Under the pieces are notes generated by a model. That model did no database searches and had not been told where the DNA came from. It was given only the letters and a program-made list of their open reading frames with translations. This document shows, one piece after another, positions 40,484 through 55,763 of a stretch of 64,000 nucleotides of DNA (its first letter is position 1; every line of letters begins with the position of its first letter). The stretch is from Adineta ricciae (lineage: Eukaryota; Rotifera; Eurotatoria; Adinetida; Adinetidae), in assembly GCA_905250025.1 (NCBI GenBank), contig CAJNOJ010000044.1:372001-436000 (forward strand). The letters run 5' to 3'. The translations under genes and the position numbers were made by a program.

Positions 40484-43391
40484 ATGGCATTCGATAATAA
40501 TAATACCATTGATATTCCAAATACGATCGACACCATGTCGACTCACAAAGAAGATGATAGTCCACAGCAGCAAATTAACGAACAGTCAATAGCCGCACAA
40601 GAGCTTGAAAAGAATCGGGAATGTACGTTTCAAAAGCAAATATGTGTTTTTCCAGAAAATATTCTAATTTTTTGAATAGCTTTGAAACGGAAATTACAAA
40701 CACGGCGATCGCTGAAACAACTTGTCGATGTGGGGATCATGCCGCCACCAAAAGCGCCATTGCCTTATTTCGAACAACGTAAACAGTTACAAATGCGAAA
40801 AGTAAGCCAAGATAAAGATAATCTTTCAAAACATATCTATCATCTCGTACTTCTAGACGCAAGATATTTTGAAAAACAAGATCATCTCTCGTCCTGATCG
40901 CCAATTGTTGATTGAACATAATATTCTGTCAGATACAACAGCTGCACCTGCTATACAAAAAACCCAACGCCAATTAAAACGGGCACGTTTAGCTGATAAT
41001 TTAAATGATAAATTAGCAGCACGTCCAGGTGTTCTCGAATTAGTCGCTAACAATATTTTAGAAATCGATTCCAATCTTAAAGAAGCTATTCAAGGTGGAC
41101 TAATCAAATTTCCAAGTACAAAATCAACATCCACTCCGATCGTAACTACAACGACTACTCCTCCAAGCACATCTGTGTTCTGTTCAACAGATTCTCAACA
41201 ACAACGACCACTTCGTCCAAAAACATCATCATTTTCCAACACAATCAATGGGCAACTAATAGCTACTCCAGCTACGACTAGCACTGTCACGACCAGCGCT
41301 ACGAAACGCTTGTTAACATCGACGTCAAAAGCGAAATCGAGTTTAACGTTTCATGAATACAAAGGGCCATCTCGAAAAGCTGAAGTTACCAAAGTACCTT
41401 TACAACCCACGCCATCCCTAATCGTACAACCGGTTCAAGCGACGCTTGTACCATTCGTACCGTTAGAGCATAACAATACACTGAATGAGAACCATTATCG
41501 CATACAATTACGACAGCAGCAATTGTTTCTCGAGCTTCTTCATGATACTAAATCAGGAGAAAACGACGATGAAAATAGTCAACATGAAATACGTCACGAG
41601 GACAATCTTATTGGAAATCTTCTTCAACAACCGATCGATGAGAGTGTGAATATTTTATCAGCAATAACTGATGATATTCAAATGTTTGAGAAAATGAAAG
41701 TAACCGATTTGAGGAATGAATGTAGACGGTTAAATTTGAGTACCACGGGCACAAAAATGAAGCTAATTGAAAAATTAAGAAATGCAAAAGTTAAAATGTC
41801 AGGTAAGACGTTCGAGTTCTACATTCAATTGACAATTTGTTGAGATATTTAGATACAGCAATTGTTCCATCGCAAGCGATGAACACCGAATCACCCTTTA
41901 CCCAAATAACAAATGCATCGCCTTCACCTCTTCGACTTATAAGTAAGATTCGTCAAAACTAAGGGATTCAGTAATACGACAGCGAGAGATTGCCGACATT
42001 GACTTCTATTTTTCATAATGAACTGAATTACTACTGACATTTGTATACAACAATAACAACCAACAGTTCTACAATGAAATCGAGTGTAATGCAGAACATG
42101 TGCTGATAATTTCCCTCGTGTGATTGTGTTAATCGTTACAATCGATTGTCATGATCATTATTCTCGTGCATTATATAATATTAATAATAACAACTAATGA
42201 GAATTACTCAATAGTCTTGTTGCTTTCAAACTCTTGTTCGTGAAAACCCAAAAAGACGATTTGTTAACCGCATTTTCTTACTAATTCGAAATATGTGGTA
42301 AACATTCCAGAGGATTTATTTGGAAAAAAAAAGAAGCATTTAGAAAGATGAAATTGTATTGCACAATTGATATGAATCATATTTTTCTGTTTCGTTCTAT
42401 AGTTTCCACTTCATCGTTGAGTGATCAAGAGCTCTACCAACAGCAACAACAGAAAATTGTAGAACTAGAAAATCAGTTACAAAAAATGAAGCAACTCGAT
42501 TCATCTTCACTTCAAGCATCACATGTTCTCCAACATACAGACAACACAACAGCAACGAATGTAAATACATCTTCTTGTTTTGATCAAACATGCGACATGT
42601 TTATTCCTATAGATCCCACCGAAATGCAATCCAATTCTATGCGTTCAAATTCAAAAACGTAAGACGAAATTCATCTGACTGTATTTACATAGTTAATGGC
42701 CTTTGTTCCGTAGGAATTCTCATGGAACAACAAGCAAAGCTAAAGCAGAAGATTCATGATGAGCAGAGTCAACAACAACAACAGCATTCCATTGTTCCGT
42801 TAACTCCTGAATGTGTTGCAAGATTTTTGGAAAATCAAACTCAGTCACAAACCTCAACTAATCACCCATGGTCGATACACCATTCGATATCTGCTCCAAC
42901 ATTGCCAACCTACATGGATAGTAATTATCACGACACATATCTATCGGTAAAGAAAATCTTCCATTGTCACAAGACAAATGTATCATTTTCTGTTATCTTT
43001 CAGGGACATACAGAAAGTAAAATTGATGACGATGTGATACTCAGTATACTGGGTGATTATACAGGTACCATCGAACTAATAGCTGAGCTAACGTATGACT
43101 TTCTTCTTTATAGCTTCTAGCTCAACACTACCACTATCTACAGATGATTCTCTATCCAATCCAACGAACTCCTGTATATCTTCATCTCCTTCCACGCACA
43201 TGGATTGGATGCCAATGACATCTCCGACAATAATGAGCGAGTTTTACGATGATAACAATCCTGATTTTACACAATTCCTTAATCAATTCGGTAACGATCA
43301 TCATCTGCTTTTCGATTCAACCTTATCAACGTGTCAGCAACAGAATACTCTGTCGTTCGATTTGCTTTCGCCGTCAAGTCCAATGATTTGA
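40484..43391 (+). CDS. MRTF: Myocardin-related transcription factor (MRTF/MKL)
   Basis: Actin-regulated coactivator of SRF. G-actin binds its RPEL repeats, and actin polymerisation frees it to enter the nucleus. Eight exons (40484-40622, 40680-40801, 40857-41802, 41853-41942, 42403-42642, 42714-42946, 43004-43064, 43114-43391) give 702 residues. RPEL 1 is TRRSLKQLVDVGIMPP (degenerate), RPEL 2 SRPDRQLLIEHNIL, RPEL 3 ARPGVLELVANNIL. The basic KRARLADNL segment lies before RPEL 3. Next come a Gln-rich block (RQQQLFLELL), a SAP domain (MKVTDLRNECRRLNL then GTKMKLIEKLR), a leucine-zipper-like coil (QQKIVELENQLQKMKQL) and an acidic activation tail with DDVILSILGD and HMDWMPM. All match the vertebrate order. 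The exon 5 donor is uncertain: a weak GTTCAA at 42643 keeps frame, while a consensus GTAAGA at 42659 does not. The start could be further upstream. AATAAA at 43536-43541. Confidence 0.92.
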
Positions 43392-46119: not shown

Positions 46120-46427
46120 TCATTCTAATTTGTTCTATTTTGTATATGAGTTTCTGAAATAAACGAGCGACGTAAAAAAGTCCGATGCGTTTGTTTACTT
46201 CAGAGCGTGTTTTGAAGTACTCTATTCAAAATCACTTTGATGATTGTCCGCCATACATTTAGACATATTTGTTTTTCTTTTCACGTTCGGAATCAGTGTC
46301 TTAAATCAATATTAACTAAGAGCGAGCGAGAGAAAAAAACAAAGATACTTTCATTTAAATGGATCACTTTCTTTTCTCACATGCAGATATTAAAGTTGTT
46401 AGCTTTTGAAAAAAAAAGAAACAATCA
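46120..46427. other. Short spacer before the orphan coiled coil
   Basis: Carries AATAAA at 46158-46163 for the transporter and a T/A-rich leader with AAAAAAAAAG just before the next ATG. No gene. Confidence 0.5.
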
Positions 46428-47180
46428 ATGACAACACTGACAAGTAAATTTCAAGATATAACCAAACAATTGCAGCAGTTAAGTATTTGGAGACCCAATG
46501 AACGTAATCCACTGCTCGAACTCGAACGATGGCGTGAAGATGCTCATCAAACCATCGAACAATTGTACAATAAGAAACGATATGAAATTGGACAAGTAAC
46601 CGAGAAACACGAACGAGAATTCCTACGACAATTAGCAAGACAACGTTTGCAAATGAATAACATTCAACAAAAAATTCCGACAAAGCCAGTAGCTAATCCT
46701 TCGCTTCGTACATTTCACGAAAACTCCATCTTTAATGAATTGCAAACGATTGAAAATGATATCAACACACGATTAGGTCGAGCGGAGATAACTCTTGAAA
46801 CATTACCTTTAAATTGTAATGGTTTGGTCACCGTTGGTCTGAAAACGTACCTCTCGGGAAAGCCAGTTCCACATTGCAAAGAAATCTCGTTCAAAGATCT
46901 ACCGAAACGATCAGCACGTCGATCGGCAGACGAAGTTCGAACCGCACATCAAAAGTGGCTTCAGACAAAGAAGGAGGAAGAAAATCTCCGAAGAGAATAT
47001 TTCGATACTCGCCAACAAGAATTGGCAAACGAACGTCAAGTATTTTTTCGAAACACAGCAAATCAGGCAGCTTTTGAAAGGTGGAAGCAACAAAAACGAG
47101 AAAGCGGCGCATTCAAGAAAAGAAAAGTCGATGAACGTCGTATTAACGATAGTATTGAACAAGATATTGATGAATCTTAG
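46428..47180 (+). CDS. Orphan nuclear coiled-coil protein
   Basis: Intronless frame of 250 residues, unusual here because its neighbours are split. Two coiled-coil segments: about 25-90 (ELERWREDAHQTIEQLYNKK, KHEREFLRQLARQRLQ) and 165-225 (KWLQTKKEEENLRREYF, QQELANERQ, ERWKQQKRE). A central non-coil stretch of about 60 residues (TLPLNCNGLVTVGLKTYLSG) contains two Cys. Near the C-terminus FKKRKVDERR resembles the SV40-type nuclear localisation signal. The end is acidic (SIEQDIDES). I do not recognise the family. Composition and length are compatible with a real gene, and AATAAA lies at 47229-47234. Confidence 0.7.
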   Translation: MTTLTSKFQDITKQLQQLSIWRPNERNPLLELERWREDAHQTIEQLYNKKRYEIGQVTEKHEREFLRQLARQRLQMNNIQQKIPTKPVANPSLRTFHENSIFNELQTIENDINTRLGRAEITLETLPLNCNGLVTVGLKTYLSGKPVPHCKEISFKDLPKRSARRSADEVRTAHQKWLQTKKEEENLRREYFDTRQQELANERQVFFRNTANQAAFERWKQQKRESGAFKKRKVDERRINDSIEQDIDES

Positions 47181-47966: not shown

Positions 47967-50715
47967 TCTGAGTTGAATAATACTGGAAACAATCGGTGAC
48001 TATTTGATTGATCAATCGTAAACGATGTTGTATTCGATTATGTTAAATCTAATTTTCACAGACTGAAATAATTTCTCGACCTACGAAGCTAATCAATCAA
48101 TACACGTATATTTATAATAATAAACGACTTCGTCGCTGATCATTTTTATATAGGCATGTGACGAACAGAGAAAAAAAAGAAGCAGTGTTTGTTACGAACG
48201 CACTTTACGCACAGTTTAAGTAGAGAACAGGTATGCACACTTAAATGCTTTGCGTTAGATACAATAATATTTTTATCGTACTTTGAGTTTGTGTACTCAT
48301 ACTAAGACGTGAAGCGTGAAGTATGGCTCTATAGATACACACAAAGATTTATTACGCCCATTTCTTCGAAAAAATTCAAAAAAAAAATTTCAATGTGATC
48401 ATATAGCTACAGAACGTATTCTTGCGGTCGAGTCGTACATAGTTCTGTTATCGTTGTACGTAATATTGTGAAGTAAAGCTTCTATCAACACTGTTCTCTT
48501 CTCTAGTAGGCATGATTACACAATATCAAAGAAAAGATCAAATGATGGAAAGAAAAGCAGCATATTAAATGTTATTGTAAGACGTAACATGAGGTTATTG
48601 ACGTTAGTCTATTATTATCATGAAAACCAGATTTGTACGAACGTTATATTCGTGGCGTACTTATGGTGCATAAAAAGATATTGCGCTTCTGTCGCGAGTT
48701 CGAAGAAAAAAACCAGCGTAGGTTGTGATGAACGCCATATGAGTAGGGCTTCCTAGAATCTTTATGTAACAGGATGCCACTTTTCAGGACGCAGCTAATT
48801 ATTTTATATCGAAATGCAACTCTTTTTCATTCAAAAATTTATCATGATCTTGTAATCATAACGACGGAGCACGCATGTAGACATGTCAAAAAAACAGTTG
48901 TTATCACATACAGATAAGAAAGTCTGAACAAACATCAATATTTGATCAATACGCTGACCAGAGACGTCTAAAAATGCACGCAACTGTAGTCTACCTTCAA
49001 AAAATCTAGAGCGACACAATAGTCATCGCTAAATGGATTGACACTGTTTTATCGATCACTCATTTCGTAGTTGGTAAGCGTGGTGAATGTTACGTCTGAT
49101 CTAACACCGAATTCAAATAATTTATTATTCCAAAAAAACATCCTATATGCTTATCGGAGTTAAGCTATGTATTGACTCTGTCATGCGCATATTTGACAGT
49201 TTAGATATCTGCAGACTTCATGGTCGTTCTATATTTCAGCAAAATGAGGATTTTGTGCAAAAACTAATGAATTCTAATTCTACTTTTTGGCTTTCGGAAG
49301 AAAATGGTTCAAGTAGTTTGAGGCAAAAACTCTACGAAGAAGTAAAATTCCATGCTTTCAAACCCACAATCTCGTTCTATTTGAGAATCATGCCTCGAAA
49401 CAAAATCTTATAATTATACTACGTTCAAAATTTTCTAAGATCTTTACCTCGATCAATAAAAACGGGAAAAAGTAATGCCGATTCTCTTCAACAAATTCAA
49501 GAATTGAACACAAATCATTACCCATGTTTTCGATCGTGTTTTTTATTTCTTACAGACTGCGGCATAATAACACACAACTACAATACAGTCGTTCAACAAT
49601 AGTCAACATGACTATATTTCACACAGCGAAGAGTAGATATTAACATATGAATCACAGTTTATCGAACAGATAATCGCCTACTCAGGCTCAGATCTAATTG
49701 AGTCTTGAGGGTGTGAGGGTAGGTGTGAATGTTGATCGAAAAACTGCACATTTGTGTTCGAATAGCGTAACGTTAACTTGTACCATGTTTCCTGATGTTC
49801 CATAACTGTTAAGATTACTACCGTCTAATTTTACCAGCATTTCTTACTTCTAAGAAAATGTGATGCGTTTTTTATCTACTTCCTGTAAAACAATGTATTC
49901 ACCACTGCAGTTCATACCAACTACTATGTGTAGATAATTTTGGTAATCGCTAAATTACGAATATTCTTGCACGTAATTCTACTACTACAGTTAGAAAGAA
50001 GCGATCGAGAATCTATAACGAACGAAACATATTGTGCTATGCTACTTGTTTCGACAACAATTAGTATCTTTACTTTCATGTGCGAAAGAAATACAGATTA
50101 GATTCTATGCTCGGACTCTCTTGTCGAATTATCGACACATCGAAACTAACTAAGAGGGAAATGCTGATGATGATCTACTCTATTTTTCTTTAAATATCAG
50201 TCAAAGTTACTGGATTGCATAGCTATACTCTAGAATATCGGTCTGAACATTCGAACTATCACGGCATCTATCTTTACATATTGTACGTGTCTCTGTACTT
50301 CTAAAATATAAAGAGACGAAGAAAAGAGAGAGAAAATGACAAGTCACCTTACGATTCGCCTTACTATTTATCAAATGAAAATCGAAAACGGCTTTGCTAA
50401 AAAAAAAAGGAACTACAAGGCCTGTTGATTGTTTTTTACTTATGCATCTCCGCTGGTCGAACTATCAACATACGCATGATGATCATTATTTTCGGGCAAA
50501 TTTTGCGTATTGGTAAAACTAATTCTCGTTTTAAGACTCTTGAATACATATTTCTGTGTGTGTAGGTATCTAATACAAGTAATATTTACGATGAATATGT
50601 CAAGTTAAAATCAAGGTAAGCATTTGATTTCGACGTGGTAATCAGTGTTCGTGATTTATTCAGAAACAAGAAAATTTGTAACATATAAGAATTTAATAAA
50701 GTCGCCTGTTTCCTA
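47967..50715. other. 2.7 kb region without a clear gene
   Basis: A single plus-strand frame of 88 codons (49147-49413) has moderately protein-like composition but no family match. Nothing else is supported. T-rich and A-rich runs are common. It should contain the promoter of the mini-membrane protein and the 3' UTR of the repeat protein. No tRNA or transposon recognised. Confidence 0.45.
49147..49413 (+). CDS. Open frame of 88 aa, doubtful
   Basis: ATG to TAA, starting MLIGVKLCIDSVMRIFDSLD and ending RIMPRNKIL. Protein-like composition with Cys and Trp present. No signal peptide and no recognised motif. No splice partner found. May be a fragment or chance. Confidence 0.15.
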   Translation: MLIGVKLCIDSVMRIFDSLDICRLHGRSIFQQNEDFVQKLMNSNSTFWLSEENGSSSLRQKLYEEVKFHAFKPTISFYLRIMPRNKIL

Positions 50716-53700
50716 TTATATGTGAACGAAACCATCCGGTGTATCGTACAGATCAGATAAGTCTTTTGGATATGAAGCAGTTCCTTGCGAATATAGAGAA
50801 TTGTACTGATTATTTTGTGAATCAAATGTAGAAAATGATCCTGGATACTCTTGAGATCGATACTTCTTATTATCAATAACGACAGAATTAAGTACGGCAT
50901 AAGGCACTTCTGCAACAATAATACGTCCCGTCGATGAAAATTCTGTTTTCTCTATGGTAATTATCGAATCAGAACCTAAATCCAAGCATCGAAGCGCCTT
51001 TTGAATGTCGTGTAATTCTGACGGTGACACCAGCGTGGAAGAAATACTTATTTGTTGGTGCTGGATTGGTTGTGGTGGCGGTATAGAACTCGACAAGTTC
51101 GTGTATTGTGCTAATGGCATATCATTTCTTGTAGGAGATGCTGCTCGATGAATGTCATGCGCCGGTGGCTGAGGGATATTTGACGAGAATGGCGGCGGTG
51201 ATGGTGATAGCGTACGTGTTGATTGAAATGGTGGAGAGGTGGTGAACTGAGATGTTTGTTTGACAGGCACTGGTGAATATGCTGTTTGAGGACAATAGTA
51301 GTCGACTTTTCGATCCGTTTGAGGAGGATAGTAGTCGACCTTTCGATCCGTTTGTATTTCACTATGAACAGGAGTAGATCGTAGTTGTGATAAATAATCA
51401 GGAGTTTGCACTCTAGCCTCTTCTGATGCTGTCGACTTTGGTTGCAGCGATGACGGTGCTGTTTCGGGAGGATAGATGCGCTTATAAAACGATGGAATTG
51501 GTGGGACGGCATGATCAGGAGGTGAATCATTGTCGATTATCCATGTGTCATTAAGAATAGTAACTGGATGGCGTTTATTCTCTGCATATTTACTCGCAGT
51601 ATTAGAATTTTCCTGTAACGTATTTTCTTTCAGAGGTGCTTTTTGTGTTGTCGTGCTGGAGTCAGCCCAGTGCGGATTCTTCGACGGTTCAGTTGCCTTG
51701 GCTGATACGACTGAGTTATCTGGCATTTTAACGTTCGAATATGAATTCTCCCGCGGTGGACTTGGCTGTTGGGAAGGTGTCGTTGTTGTTTGAGGCACAG
51801 TGTTTTTCCAATAAGGATTCTGCCATGGTTCATCTGGTTGTTTAGAAGACTCCTTAGGCTGAACATTATTATCTTTCCAATAGGGATTAACCCATGGAAT
51901 ATTTTCTTGCTTCGCTGGCTTTGATTGATTGTCACTATGAATAACCTTGTATTTGTCATCTTTCCAATAAGGGCTTTTCCACGGTGCCTGTTCTGCTTGA
52001 TCCGGCTTCGCTGCTTCAGATATTCTCGCTGTATTATCCTGCTCAGCAGGCAATGCAGGTTGAATAGGCTTATCCTTCCAATATGGATTCTCCCACGGTT
52101 TCCGCACTTCTGCGCTAGACTTAGCATTAGCTGTTGGCTGATCTTTCCAATAAGGATTCTGCCATGGCGTTGGTTCCTTTTCAGTAGACTTTACCGCTTC
52201 AGATACAATGGGTTTGAAATCTAAATTTTCTGCTGACTTATCATCCTGCTTAAACGAAGTTGTTTCCTGAACACTTTGATTCTTCCAATATGGATTCTCC
52301 CACGGCGTCTGTGCTTCTTTCGCTGGTTTAACACTAGTGACTGGTTGATCCTTCCAATACGGGTTTTGCCACGGCTCTACTTGTAGTTTTGGACATGTCG
52401 ATTGATCAGGCGCAGTACTTTTCGAAGTGACCGTCTCTGGTTGCTCGAGAGAAACTGAAGTCTGTGTTGTGACAGTTTTACGATCAGCCGTTCTCCACAT
52501 TATGTCATCTGTTGTCGTATTAGTTGATTTATCTTCTTTCTTAACTGCTGCTGGAGTTGCAGATGTTTGACTCTTCCAATATGGATTCTCCCACGACGTC
52601 TGTTGTTTTTGCTTAGTAGCGGTCGACTTTCCAATTGCATCATCGTTCCAATACGGATTTTTCCATGGCTCAGCTTCTTCCTTGATGCTTGTCACCTTTT
52701 CCGCAGCCGCCTTGTGGTCTTTCCAGTATGGATTCACCCACGGCTTCTCTTCCTTTTTACTATCCGCAGCATCGCTCAACTTTGTAGAACCTATCGATAC
52801 ATCTGGTTGACTCAGAGAACGTGAAACTACTGCAGATTTGTTCCTCCAATAAGGATTTTCCCATGGCGTTTCTTCTTTCTTGTCATTAGTTGCTACTGGA
52901 ATTGCGGTTTTGTCTTCTTTCCAGTATGGATTCACCCACGGTTTTTCTTCTTTGTTTGTCTGTGTTAAGAGTGAAGACTTAAGATTTTCTGATTGTGGGT
53001 TTTTCAAAGATGTGCTTATCTGTTTCTCCGTCCAATATGGATTCTTCCATGGTTCAACTTCTCTCTTCACACTGGCCGCTGCTGGTGCTGTGGCTTTATG
53101 TTCCTTCCAGTAGGGATTCTCCCACGGTTCGTCTTCTTTCTTGCTGTCCGTCAAATCTTTCGATTGTGAAGTGCTGATCGATGCATCTGGTTGACTCTGA
53201 GATCTTGCAAGTGCTACGGATCTATTCTTCCAGTAAGGATTTTCCCATGGCTTCGCTTCCTGCTTTGCCTCTGTAGGTATGGAAGGCTCAAGGTCTTGTG
53301 GTTTCAATTTTTCGAGAGGACTGCTGGTCTCTTTATCTGTCCAATAGGGATTCTTCCACGGTTCAGCATCCTTCTTCATAGTAGCCGCTACTGAGGTTGT
53401 CACTTTTTGTTCTTTCCAGTAAGGATTTTCCCATGGCTTCGCTTCCTGCTTTGCCTCTGTAGGTATGGAAGGCTCAAGGTCTTGTGGTTTCAATTTTTCG
53501 AGAGGACTGCTGGTCTCTTTATCTGTCCAATAGGGATTCTTCCACGGTTCAGCATCCTTCTTCATAGTAGCCGCTACTGAGGTTGTCACTTTTTGTTCTT
53601 TCCAATATGGATTTTCCCATGGTTTGTCTTCTTTTTTACTGTCTGTCGAATCTAGTTGGCTTAAGGATCTTGGAAGTGCTGCGGTCTTATTTTTCCAGTA

Positions 53701-55763
53701 AGGATTCTCCCATGGCTCTGCTTCTTTCTTTTCGTCAGATAGTTTCGAACTCGAATGCTTTTCTTTCCAGTATGGATTTTCCCACGGTGTGTCTACTTTT
53801 TTGCTGTCTATTGAATCTTTCAATGTCGAAGCACTGACTAGCGTATCTGGTTGACTCAGAGACCTTGGAAATGCTGCAGATTTATTCTTCCAATAAGGAT
53901 TCTCCCACGGCTTTTCTTCTTGTTTCGTTGAAGTCATTAATACGGGTTTACTATCTCCTGAAATAACATTGCTTTTCGATTCGCTTTCTTTCCCAGTAGA
54001 CGTTTCGGTGGTGGATTTACTCTCTTGCCAATAAGGATTTTTCCACACAGAATCATCTTTGTTCGTAGACATTGAGGTGTCAAGCTTGTTGTCTTTGATT
54101 TTTAATTCACCGGCAGACTGATTTGATTCGTTAAGCGTGGTAACATTCGGAGATGCTTTCGTTTTCCAGTAAGGATTTTCCCACGGAGTTTCCTCTTTTA
54201 CTACAGATTGAGGTATTTCTTTTTTATCTTGTTTGGAATTCGAATTATTTACAAGTTTGTTTCCGTGTGTGGCCAGTGTTGATATGGTAGACGATTTATC
54301 TTTCCAATAGGGATTCTCCCATGGTTTGTCATCTTTTACATCTGGTTTTTCTACTAATTCAAGGTGCGGCTTTGAAATGATAAAGACTGATGATGCTTTA
54401 TCTTTCCAGTAAGGATTTTCCCAAGGTATCTCTTCTTTTCTGCTGGTCTCTGAGGTATCCTTTTTATCATCATTTGAAGTCGAGGGTAAACTTGACAATT
54501 TGCTTTCTTTCCAATAAGGGTTCTCCCATGGTTTCTTATCTTCTATGCGAGATTCCTCATTTTCCGTCAACTTCAGATTATCGGTTGATTCATTCGGTCC
54601 TTTAGAACTTGTTTCGGTCGTGACTCTTTCAGTTTTCCAGTACGGGTTTACCCATGGCAGATCTTTTTCTATGTTGATGGATGGCTTTTCAAAGGGTCGA
54701 GCGTCTAGAGAAGAGTCAGTGGAAGGATTAGAGTCGATAGGCGCTAAAAGAGAAGAGAAATTGTCACTTCTTATTGAAGAATCCTTCTGTGTATCATAAG
54801 AAGGATTGGAAGAAGTAGTACTTATTCTCTTCTCTACAATGACTTTGCCATCTCCTTGATTTGCTGTTGACCAATATGGATTGACCCATGGCTTCGTGTC
54901 GATACTAACTTCGTCCGACGCAACGTTTGGTTTGTTTATTAAAGATGCGATTCTGATGTCATCTTCATCGGATGAATCGGTTTCCTTCAAACGTTGATAA
55001 CCCGAGGAACTGTACAGTAGTTTCGATCTTGCGTCATCACTTTTCAACGTGAGCGAATCGTCTTGATCCATTCCGTCATCTGTTGGACATTTTTCAGTTG
55101 TATGGAATGAGTCGTCAGATCTATGTGAAAAGTCGCCAGAGTCCTGCTTCTTCCGTTGCGCACTTATTGTAAGTTTGTTTTGATCGGCAGGTGCATTTGC
55201 GCCCGGTACGAAACTACGAAAACAAATTTTACTCGGTTAGAACTTCAATTAATTCATATGTAGCTAAAATGTCATTACCATGGAGCATTAGAACTATCAA
55301 TTTGCTCATTAACTGTCGTTCGTGTTGTTGTAATCACTGTTTTCGAGATAGGGCCCCAATATGGGTTGACCCATTCTTGTTTTTCTGTTTGTTGTTTTGA
55401 TTTATTTTCAATAGGAAGAGTGTTCTCAGTAGTTAACTTGTTTTCAACCTCTGTCTGTGTGTCACTATTTATGTAAATGTCGTTGACTGCTTTAATTAGA
55501 GCTTCGTCATGATCAGTATCGTTATTGCCAACGTCCCGGTCCGTAGCATCATCGTCATCATCAATTAGTGGCTTGATCACTTTCCTGACACTTTGATTTT
55601 TCTCTGCATTCCCCCGGGAGTGTTGTTCTATGTCACTTTTTGCTTCATGCCAACTATCACTAGTTGTTGTTTTCGATGTCGCATCCGACGTATTAGACGA
55701 TGATGTTGTGTCTTCATCAGAAACTTCCTCTTCTGTCGAACTTTGATTTCTTCGACTGAACAT
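50716..55763 (-). CDS. Giant W-x-NPYW repeat protein, unknown function
   Basis: Two exons, 55279-55763 and 50716-55213, with a 65 bp intron, give 1660 residues. I count 30 copies of a core [PW]-W-x-N-P-Y-W (mostly PWENPYWK), one with S for N, plus two degenerate ones near the end. Each core is followed by a spacer of about 15-45 residues rich in Ser, Thr, Lys, Glu and Asp, so the protein is probably disordered with regular aromatic anchor points. Several spacers carry (P/A/S)RSxSQPD, an RSxSxP-type motif. The N-terminal 130 residues are acidic and Ser-rich. After the repeats comes a Pro-rich stretch (SPSPPPFSS) and a conserved-looking C-terminal block of about 120 residues (SPSELHDIQKALRCLDLG, GRIIVAEVPYAVLN). 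There is no signal peptide or TM. I recognise no family. An acceptor-like TTACACAG lies 14 bases before the ATG. A 186-bp tandem duplication lies within 53229-53600. Confidence 0.85.
53229..53600 (-). repeat. Tandem duplication of 186 bp inside the repeat gene
   Basis: Copy 1 at about 53229-53414 and copy 2 at about 53415-53600. By eye they look identical or nearly so. The unit is 62 codons, carrying two NPYW cores (PWENPYWK and PWKNPYWT), so it preserves frame. The near-identity shows very recent expansion or gene conversion. Confidence 0.75.

Follow-up and report, generated by a model that had tools for sequence, protein, structure and literature searches.

The repeat gene and its product

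We analysed a stretch of 64,000 nucleotides, referred to here as the window, from the genome of the rotifer Adineta ricciae (assembly GCA_905250025.1, contig CAJNOJ010000044.1, hereafter C44, positions 372,001 to 436,000 of the forward strand). The subject of this study is a minus-strand gene at 55763..50716 of the window, which encodes a protein with thirty copies of an aromatic hexamer, W-x-(N/S)-P-Y-W. After splicing, the product is 1660 amino acids (aa) long with a single terminal stop. Both this length and the number of repeats agree with a first-pass annotation made from the sequence alone, which had placed an orphan 1660-aa protein of 30 repeats at 50716-55763. The G+C content (GC) of the window is 36.2%, and a value of 35.6% is reported for the species (PMC5916493).

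The gene has two exons, 55763..55279 and 55213..50716. Exon 1, which comprises 161 complete codons and 2 further bases, encodes a Met-Phe start, a Ser/Asp-rich leader, a DDDDD tract and the first motif in the context EWVNPYWGP, the WVNPYW hexamer itself lying at 55356..55373 (positions 427356-427373 of C44). The sole intron, at 55278..55214, is 65 base pairs (bp) long, in phase 2 and bounded by GT..AG. Exon 2 carries motifs 2 to 30, the C-terminal tail and the stop codon, with the motifs and their Ser/Thr/Lys/Glu/Asp-rich spacers forming an array at 51808..54888. An AATAAA polyadenylation-like signal is located at 50655..50660, 58 bases past the first base of the stop codon. Hydropathy analysis of the window protein detected no signal peptide or membrane span.

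The annotated core W-(E/K/V/Q)-N-P-Y-W holds exactly for 29 of the thirty hexamers, while the remaining one reads WKSPYW. The variable second position is occupied by E in 15, V in 6, K in 6 (one of them in WKSPYW) and Q in 3, and 60 of the 64 tryptophans of the protein sit inside hexamers. As had also been noted, the core usually follows a proline and precedes a lysine, with P before the first W in 27/30 and K after the second W in 22/30. The spacing, earlier put at about 15-45 residues, has to be corrected: the motif-to-motif distance is 23-46 aa in 26 of the 29 intervals and 140, 78 and 74 aa in the other three.

The hexamer is far too frequent and too exact for a protein of this composition. 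In 2000 shuffles of the window protein, W..PYW occurred 0.0075 times on average and once at most. Position by position, the first Trp is found in 30/30, Asn in 29/30, Pro in 30/30, the fifth-place Tyr in 30/30 and the last Trp in 30/30, although the W and P counts are fixed by the search rule W..PYW. A motif-blind scan was therefore informative, in which the W..PYW selection rule was not used and every hexamer matching the core in two or more of its five letters was recorded. It returned 29 hexamers at 5/5, one at 4/5, one at 3/5 and 14 at 2/5. The corresponding shuffle means were 0.05 for 4/5, 1.89 for 3/5 and 37.7 for 2/5, the last being a weak comparison because shuffling scatters the 64 tryptophans along the chain and inflates this mean. 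The hexamer is nearly all-or-none, with few intermediates left, and this bears out the earlier observation that the core is kept while the spacers drift.

The core codons vary among the copies (AAT 25, AAC 4; CCT 12, CCA 10, CCC 5, CCG 3; TAT 20, TAC 10), and because of this synonymous variation the identity of the hexamers does not stem from recent copying only. Per-codon nonsynonymous (pN) and synonymous (pS) differences were calculated over 28 of the 30 units, the two units of a recent duplicate pair being left out. The pN for N-P-Y was 0.010, a value that is low partly by construction because the units were picked by the regular expression W..PYW. For spacer codons +8 to +14, pN was 0.65 compared to a pS of 0.70.

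The recent duplicate pair is a tandem duplication at 53228..53622 of a two-motif unit of 186 bp. Its copies show 2 differences, both of which are third-position synonymous changes in core codons. The array has grown by duplication, and the sequence indicates that the duplicated units contained two motifs and that the 186-bp event was the latest.

The repeat region is predicted to be disordered. An AlphaFold model of 350 aa of the array, based on one sequence, had a mean predicted local distance difference test score (pLDDT) of 45 and contained no secondary structure, and the charge-hydropathy value of the repeats was -0.064, on the disordered side. Since inputs of one and three sequences are weak ones for AlphaFold, disorder is supported rather than proven by these models. 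The predictions are in line with the multivalent disordered scaffold architecture proposed in the annotation.

A folded C-terminal domain, which had also been proposed, is not supported. The last 283 aa modelled together with both of the paralogs described below (3 rows) gave a mean pLDDT of 38.8 with no residue at or above 70; the model contained a low-confidence helix at SELHDIQKALRCLD (50980..51021), followed by two weak strands. These strands favour a fold, and so does the charge-hydropathy value of the last 110 aa (+0.030), which is only just on the folded side. However, the paralogs do not retain the region of the predicted strands (SIITIEKTEF..) and largely lack the last 110 aa. Only two elements of the tail are well kept there: the block FYKRIYPP (51466..51489; FYERIYPP in the paralogs, hence FY-x-RIYPP) and the predicted helix of about 14 residues, which reads SEI(H/Y)RIHKALR(L/Q)LE in the paralogs. 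The tail also contains a 33-bp tandem duplication (51284-51354), encoding QTDRKVDYYPP and QTDRKVDYYCP, which indicates that it too is prone to internal duplication.

The eukaryotic searches covered the genome of A. ricciae itself together with PDB and Pfam, and it is within these that the statement that no family is known holds, as the annotation had it. Pfam returned no family for either exon of the window gene (E ≤ 1) or for one of the two paralogs (E ≤ 0.01), and NCBIfam returned none for exon 2 of the window gene and of one paralog. Among PDB sequences there was no match for a 71-aa repeat stretch (E ≤ 10) or for exon 2 of paralog C53a and a C-tail profile (E ≤ 1); the best obtained from PDB were three matches to the last 110 aa at E 0.63-1.3, which we regarded as chance. 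A prokaryotic or viral origin was likewise discarded, as scans of prokaryote genomes and viral contigs, using short patterns from exon 2 only, gave 2 pattern matches per collection and tblastn found no relative at E ≤ 1e-3. In the literature, no title among the matches listed for a full-text search with 'NPYW' concerned such a protein, and no paper pairing 'NPXW' with PTB was found. The kind of protein is known; its motif and family are apparently new.

Paralogs and neighbourhood on a second contig

The own-genome search covered 130 megabases (Mb) in 1033 contigs. At the protein level it pointed, weakly, to one other place, which lies on contig C53, with E values of 0.155 and, when the C-tail served as the query, 1.28. 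The gene found there follows the same plan as the window gene. It starts with MF, continues with a Ser-rich leader containing -SW- and with DDDDD, and has WVNPYWGP in exon 1, followed by a 62-bp intron after the first motif in the same phase 2. Beyond the intron it has motifs 2 and 3 as well as FYERIYPP and a helix, SEIHRIHKALRLL. A second copy lies about 13 kilobases (kb) from the first, with 489/541 aligned residues identical, a synonymous divergence (dS) of 0.118 and a nonsynonymous divergence (dN) of 0.047. The exon 1 leader, DDDDD and WVNPYWGP are similar, and the intron has the same length and phase, in both copies. Each of the two paralogs contains three motifs, all six of which keep both the first-place aromatic and the Asn-Pro at places 3-4; in C53a they are spaced by 134 and 46 aa. 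None of the C53 motifs is followed by a lysine.

The spliced window protein and the C53 protein matched in BLASTP at E 2e-18, in a search of a one-sequence database without composition correction or low-complexity filter. Since this score comes partly from the motifs and the biased composition, the argument for common descent depends instead on the blocks and the intron phase that the genes share and on their neighbours. On this sequence evidence the window gene is the expanded member of a three-gene family and not the orphan that it had been called. The prediction in the annotation that relatives would have variable repeat numbers and a fixed core was borne out, though by relatives within one genome rather than from a second species. 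For a long repeat protein of orphan-like appearance, conservation of an intron and of neighbouring genes can thus reveal short paralogs even where similarity scores are near chance (E 0.155 and 1.28). Two other weak matches were dropped: one of the C-tail on C209 (E 1.29), whose frames have no family feature, and one of the C53a paralog on C264 (E 2.27), which has four internal stops and was set aside without reading its frames.

The distribution of the motif in the genome supports the same picture. The exact pattern TGGNNNAAYCCNTAYTGG occurs at 36 sites, of which 29 are in the window gene, three in each of the two C53 genes and one on C654, and its reversed control at none. The C654 match lies in a repetitive stretch where numerous open frames overlap, and as no other family feature accompanies it, it was attributed to chance. 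That stretch (L015 1-1190) is satellite-like, its overlapping open frames repeating phrases like TWTNRSCTQYPANF. The looser pattern NPYWK, which omits the first W, gave 33 matches, 21 of them in the window gene and 12 elsewhere (C12, C20, C24, C28, C35, C48, C59, C64, C69, C122, C204 and C955), compared to one for the reversed control. None of these 12 fits the stricter pattern with the first W, and none is at the C53 genes. Lone NPYWK matches, whether coding or non-coding, do exceed the control.

The surroundings of the genes are also alike. On both C44 and C53 the repeat gene is flanked by netrin exons on one side and by a PTR2/POT transporter on the other, order and orientation being conserved, with the NTR module of netrin nearby and its laminin N-terminal domain further out; the laminin N-terminal part on C53 was identified by its likeness to that of the window. 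Between C44 and C53 the netrin exons have a dS of 1.12 and 0.90, and the two NTR exons on C53 differ by 0.16. For A. ricciae, mean Ks values of 0.135 for homologs and 1.27 for ohnologs are reported (PMC5916493). The two-step pattern of netrin dS resembles these two classes, and we take the C44 and C53 regions to be putative ohnologs. The netrin exons retain 94/116 and 99/118 identical residues, whereas the repeat gene outside its motifs retains 42/125 and 72/221. The repeat gene thus evolves far faster outside the motifs than netrin does, which adds weight to the finding that all three genes share the hexamer.

Some observations speak against the assignment as ohnologs. The PTR2 exon pair is far more diverged (105/200, dS about 4) and several PTR2-like pieces are present at C53, so the two exons may not be orthologs. 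No evident counterpart across C44 and C53 exists for the frames that separate the repeat gene from netrin, nor is there one at C53 for a coiled-coil frame situated between repeat gene and transporter. The protein search of the genome also found the window gene in a single copy, which implies that the assembly has collapsed the homologous chromosome or lacks it.

At C53:298600-318400, the netrin NTR exon and the three-motif gene each occur twice, about 13 kb apart and with homolog-like divergence. The laminin N-terminal exon further on is present twice as well (L014 1779-5247). Either these are true local duplications or the assembler has joined homologous chromosomes.

Possible function of the hexamer array

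A fixed hexamer set in drifting, disordered and unevenly spaced linkers suggests that a partner domain recognises it as a short linear motif. We lean towards the view that the window protein is an intracellular, disordered, multivalent docking scaffold, with a module that reads an Asn-Pro turn as the first candidate partner. Each W-x-N-P-Y-W would be bound by one kind of partner domain, with the spacers acting as free linkers. Like the two paralogs, the ancestor of the family probably carried around three motifs, including one in exon 1, and repeated duplication of a two-motif unit would have brought the window copy to thirty. Such an increase may confer higher avidity and allow more partners to be held at once. 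The partner could be a domain of the PTB or FERM-F3 type that takes an aromatic-x-N-P-x-aromatic ligand independently of phosphorylation, or an EH domain accepting NPY; either would place the protein in an endocytic or cortical adaptor network.

Comparison with known ligands favours these candidates in part. The hexamer resembles the NPxY-type ligands of PTB domains in its aromatic residue at place 1, Asn-Pro at places 3-4 and aromatic residue at place 6. The frame given for PTB ligands is [YF]xNPx[YF], as in FDNPVY of LDLR and YENPTY of APP (PMC4584282). In the window protein the first aromatic is Trp rather than the listed Tyr or Phe, and many copies stand in one chain without a membrane span compared to one in a receptor tail. 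Tyrosine 807 of LDLR is said in older literature to be replaceable by tryptophan or phenylalanine, which we do not use as evidence. The likeness to EH-domain ligands lies in NPY, contained in 29/30 motifs. Both flanking tryptophans are fixed here, however, and EH ligands are not known to need them; NPF is also absent from the window protein. The first-pass annotation had dismissed NPxY and NPF ligands alike, which was too quick given that the aromatic-x-N-P-x-aromatic frame fits and that EH domains are reported to accept NPY (PMC12808100). Both domain classes are represented in the genome, with 20 exon-level matches to PF00640 (PTB) and 17 to EH, some with internal stops, and these numbers speak for availability only.

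Eps15, which also carries EH domains, has a comparable unstructured C-terminal array, in which a short motif with an aromatic residue recurs many times. This motif, DPF, does not occur in the window protein, in which no domain was found either. Human Eps15 has 15 DPF triplets (PMC2238750), and the Eps15 motifs are reported to bind AP-2 appendages by avidity (PMC4921775). There is a further likeness to the clathrin W-box in that a Pro-Trp pair opens 27/30 motifs, which also contain another Trp. The W-box is PWxxW, however, and in the hexamer the second Trp is five, not three, residues past the first; PW..W does not occur.

Several points weigh against the docking proposal. The last place of the hexamer is Trp in 30/30, where PTB and FERM-F3 ligands have Tyr or Phe. 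NPxY ligands vary at the place before the last aromatic (FDNPVY has V there, YENPTY has T), whereas the hexamer has Tyr in 30/30, a constraint that an ordinary NPxY register leaves unexplained. As this fixed Tyr fits neither the PTB nor the EH class fully, a new receptor is possible. NPF, DPF/DPW and PWxxW all have a count of zero in the window protein. Near the end of the array, RENSYS and SKNPHW look like degraded copies and suggest that single motifs may be lost, though matches at 2/5 and 3/5 are no commoner in the protein than in shuffles. It is possible that the C53 copies lost motifs instead of the window gene gaining them. Finally, self-association of aromatic patches could look alike.

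This last point leads to an explanation that we consider unlikely but worth weighing, in which the hexamers act as stickers that bind each other and drive formation of a condensate or gel, for example one related to desiccation, without a dedicated partner domain. Thirty aromatic patches on a polar, near-neutral chain of disordered composition (net charge -0.023 per residue, charged fraction 0.28) would suit such a role. Stickers need aromatics but not a fixed order, however, and the constancy of Asn (29/30) and Pro (30/30) points to a specific receptor; the same hexamer is also found in the three-copy paralogs, and three copies would make a poor gel former. It is quite doubtful that the hexamer is instead a ligand of tryptophan pockets, in the manner of GW182 with Argonaute or PEX5 with PEX13/PEX14, rather than of a reader of Asn-Pro turns. 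The formula W-x-x-x-Y formally fits 30/30 motifs, each motif has two Trp and the chain is predicted to be disordered. The W-x-x-x-F/Y motifs of PEX5, which bind PEX13/PEX14, are nevertheless helical and have acidic residues, while the hexamer has a central proline and the array model is free of helix; GW182 relies on tryptophan pockets of Argonaute, but GW/WG is not enriched here (1 compared to a shuffle mean of 1.6). Nor does the window protein contain a Pfam domain such as TPR.

Binding to a cytoskeletal or sarcomeric filament, with one hexamer for each filament subunit, seems improbable to us. Xin and nebulin repeats touch filament subunits in this way, and a long protein with many copies of a short core would be compatible with it, but the spacing is aperiodic, ranging from 23 to 140 aa in the window protein and being 134 and 46 aa in C53a, and there is no Pfam match. 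Very improbable is a neutral, minisatellite-like expansion within a coding exon whose extra copies have no function. The recent duplication of the 186-bp unit would agree with it, as would the sufficiency of three copies in the paralogs, in a comparison confined to this one genome. Against it, the hexamer remains exact, with synonymous changes, even where the spacers are no longer recognisably alike, and decay should leave a spread of matches at 3/5 and 4/5, of which one each was found.

Returning to the docking scaffold, we tentatively entertain a more specific possibility, namely that W-x-N-P-Y-W represents an undescribed class of ligand and that an old duplication of the whole neighbourhood left a natural valency series, with three hooks on one side and thirty on the other. 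If so, one animal may use scaffolds of low and high valency for the same partner. Multivalent motif scaffolds as such are already known; the hexamer offers a sharp bait for its receptor, and the occurrence of 3, 3 and 30 copies of a near-invariant hexamer in one genome makes an effect of valency directly testable.

Other features of the window

Within the array, the stretch at 52804..53865 contains four homologous spacers of the form RS(L/Q)SQ(P/L), which have no counterpart in the C53a paralog. Three of the four contain R-S-x-S-x-P (shuffle mean 0.4), the mode-1 consensus of 14-3-3 proteins. As the spacers look like copies of one another, the three sites are not independent, and a regulatory role through 14-3-3 is a guess.

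Two plus-strand features were noted on the transporter side of the repeat gene. A charged frame at 46410-47180, between the transporter and the repeat gene, has a sub-threshold match to CCDC34 (E 0.0014, 18.8 bits with a cut-off of 35) and no counterpart among the frames listed at C53. Near the transporter, at 40857-41843, is an exon that encodes an RPEL repeat together with a SAP domain, which we take to be MRTF/myocardin-like.

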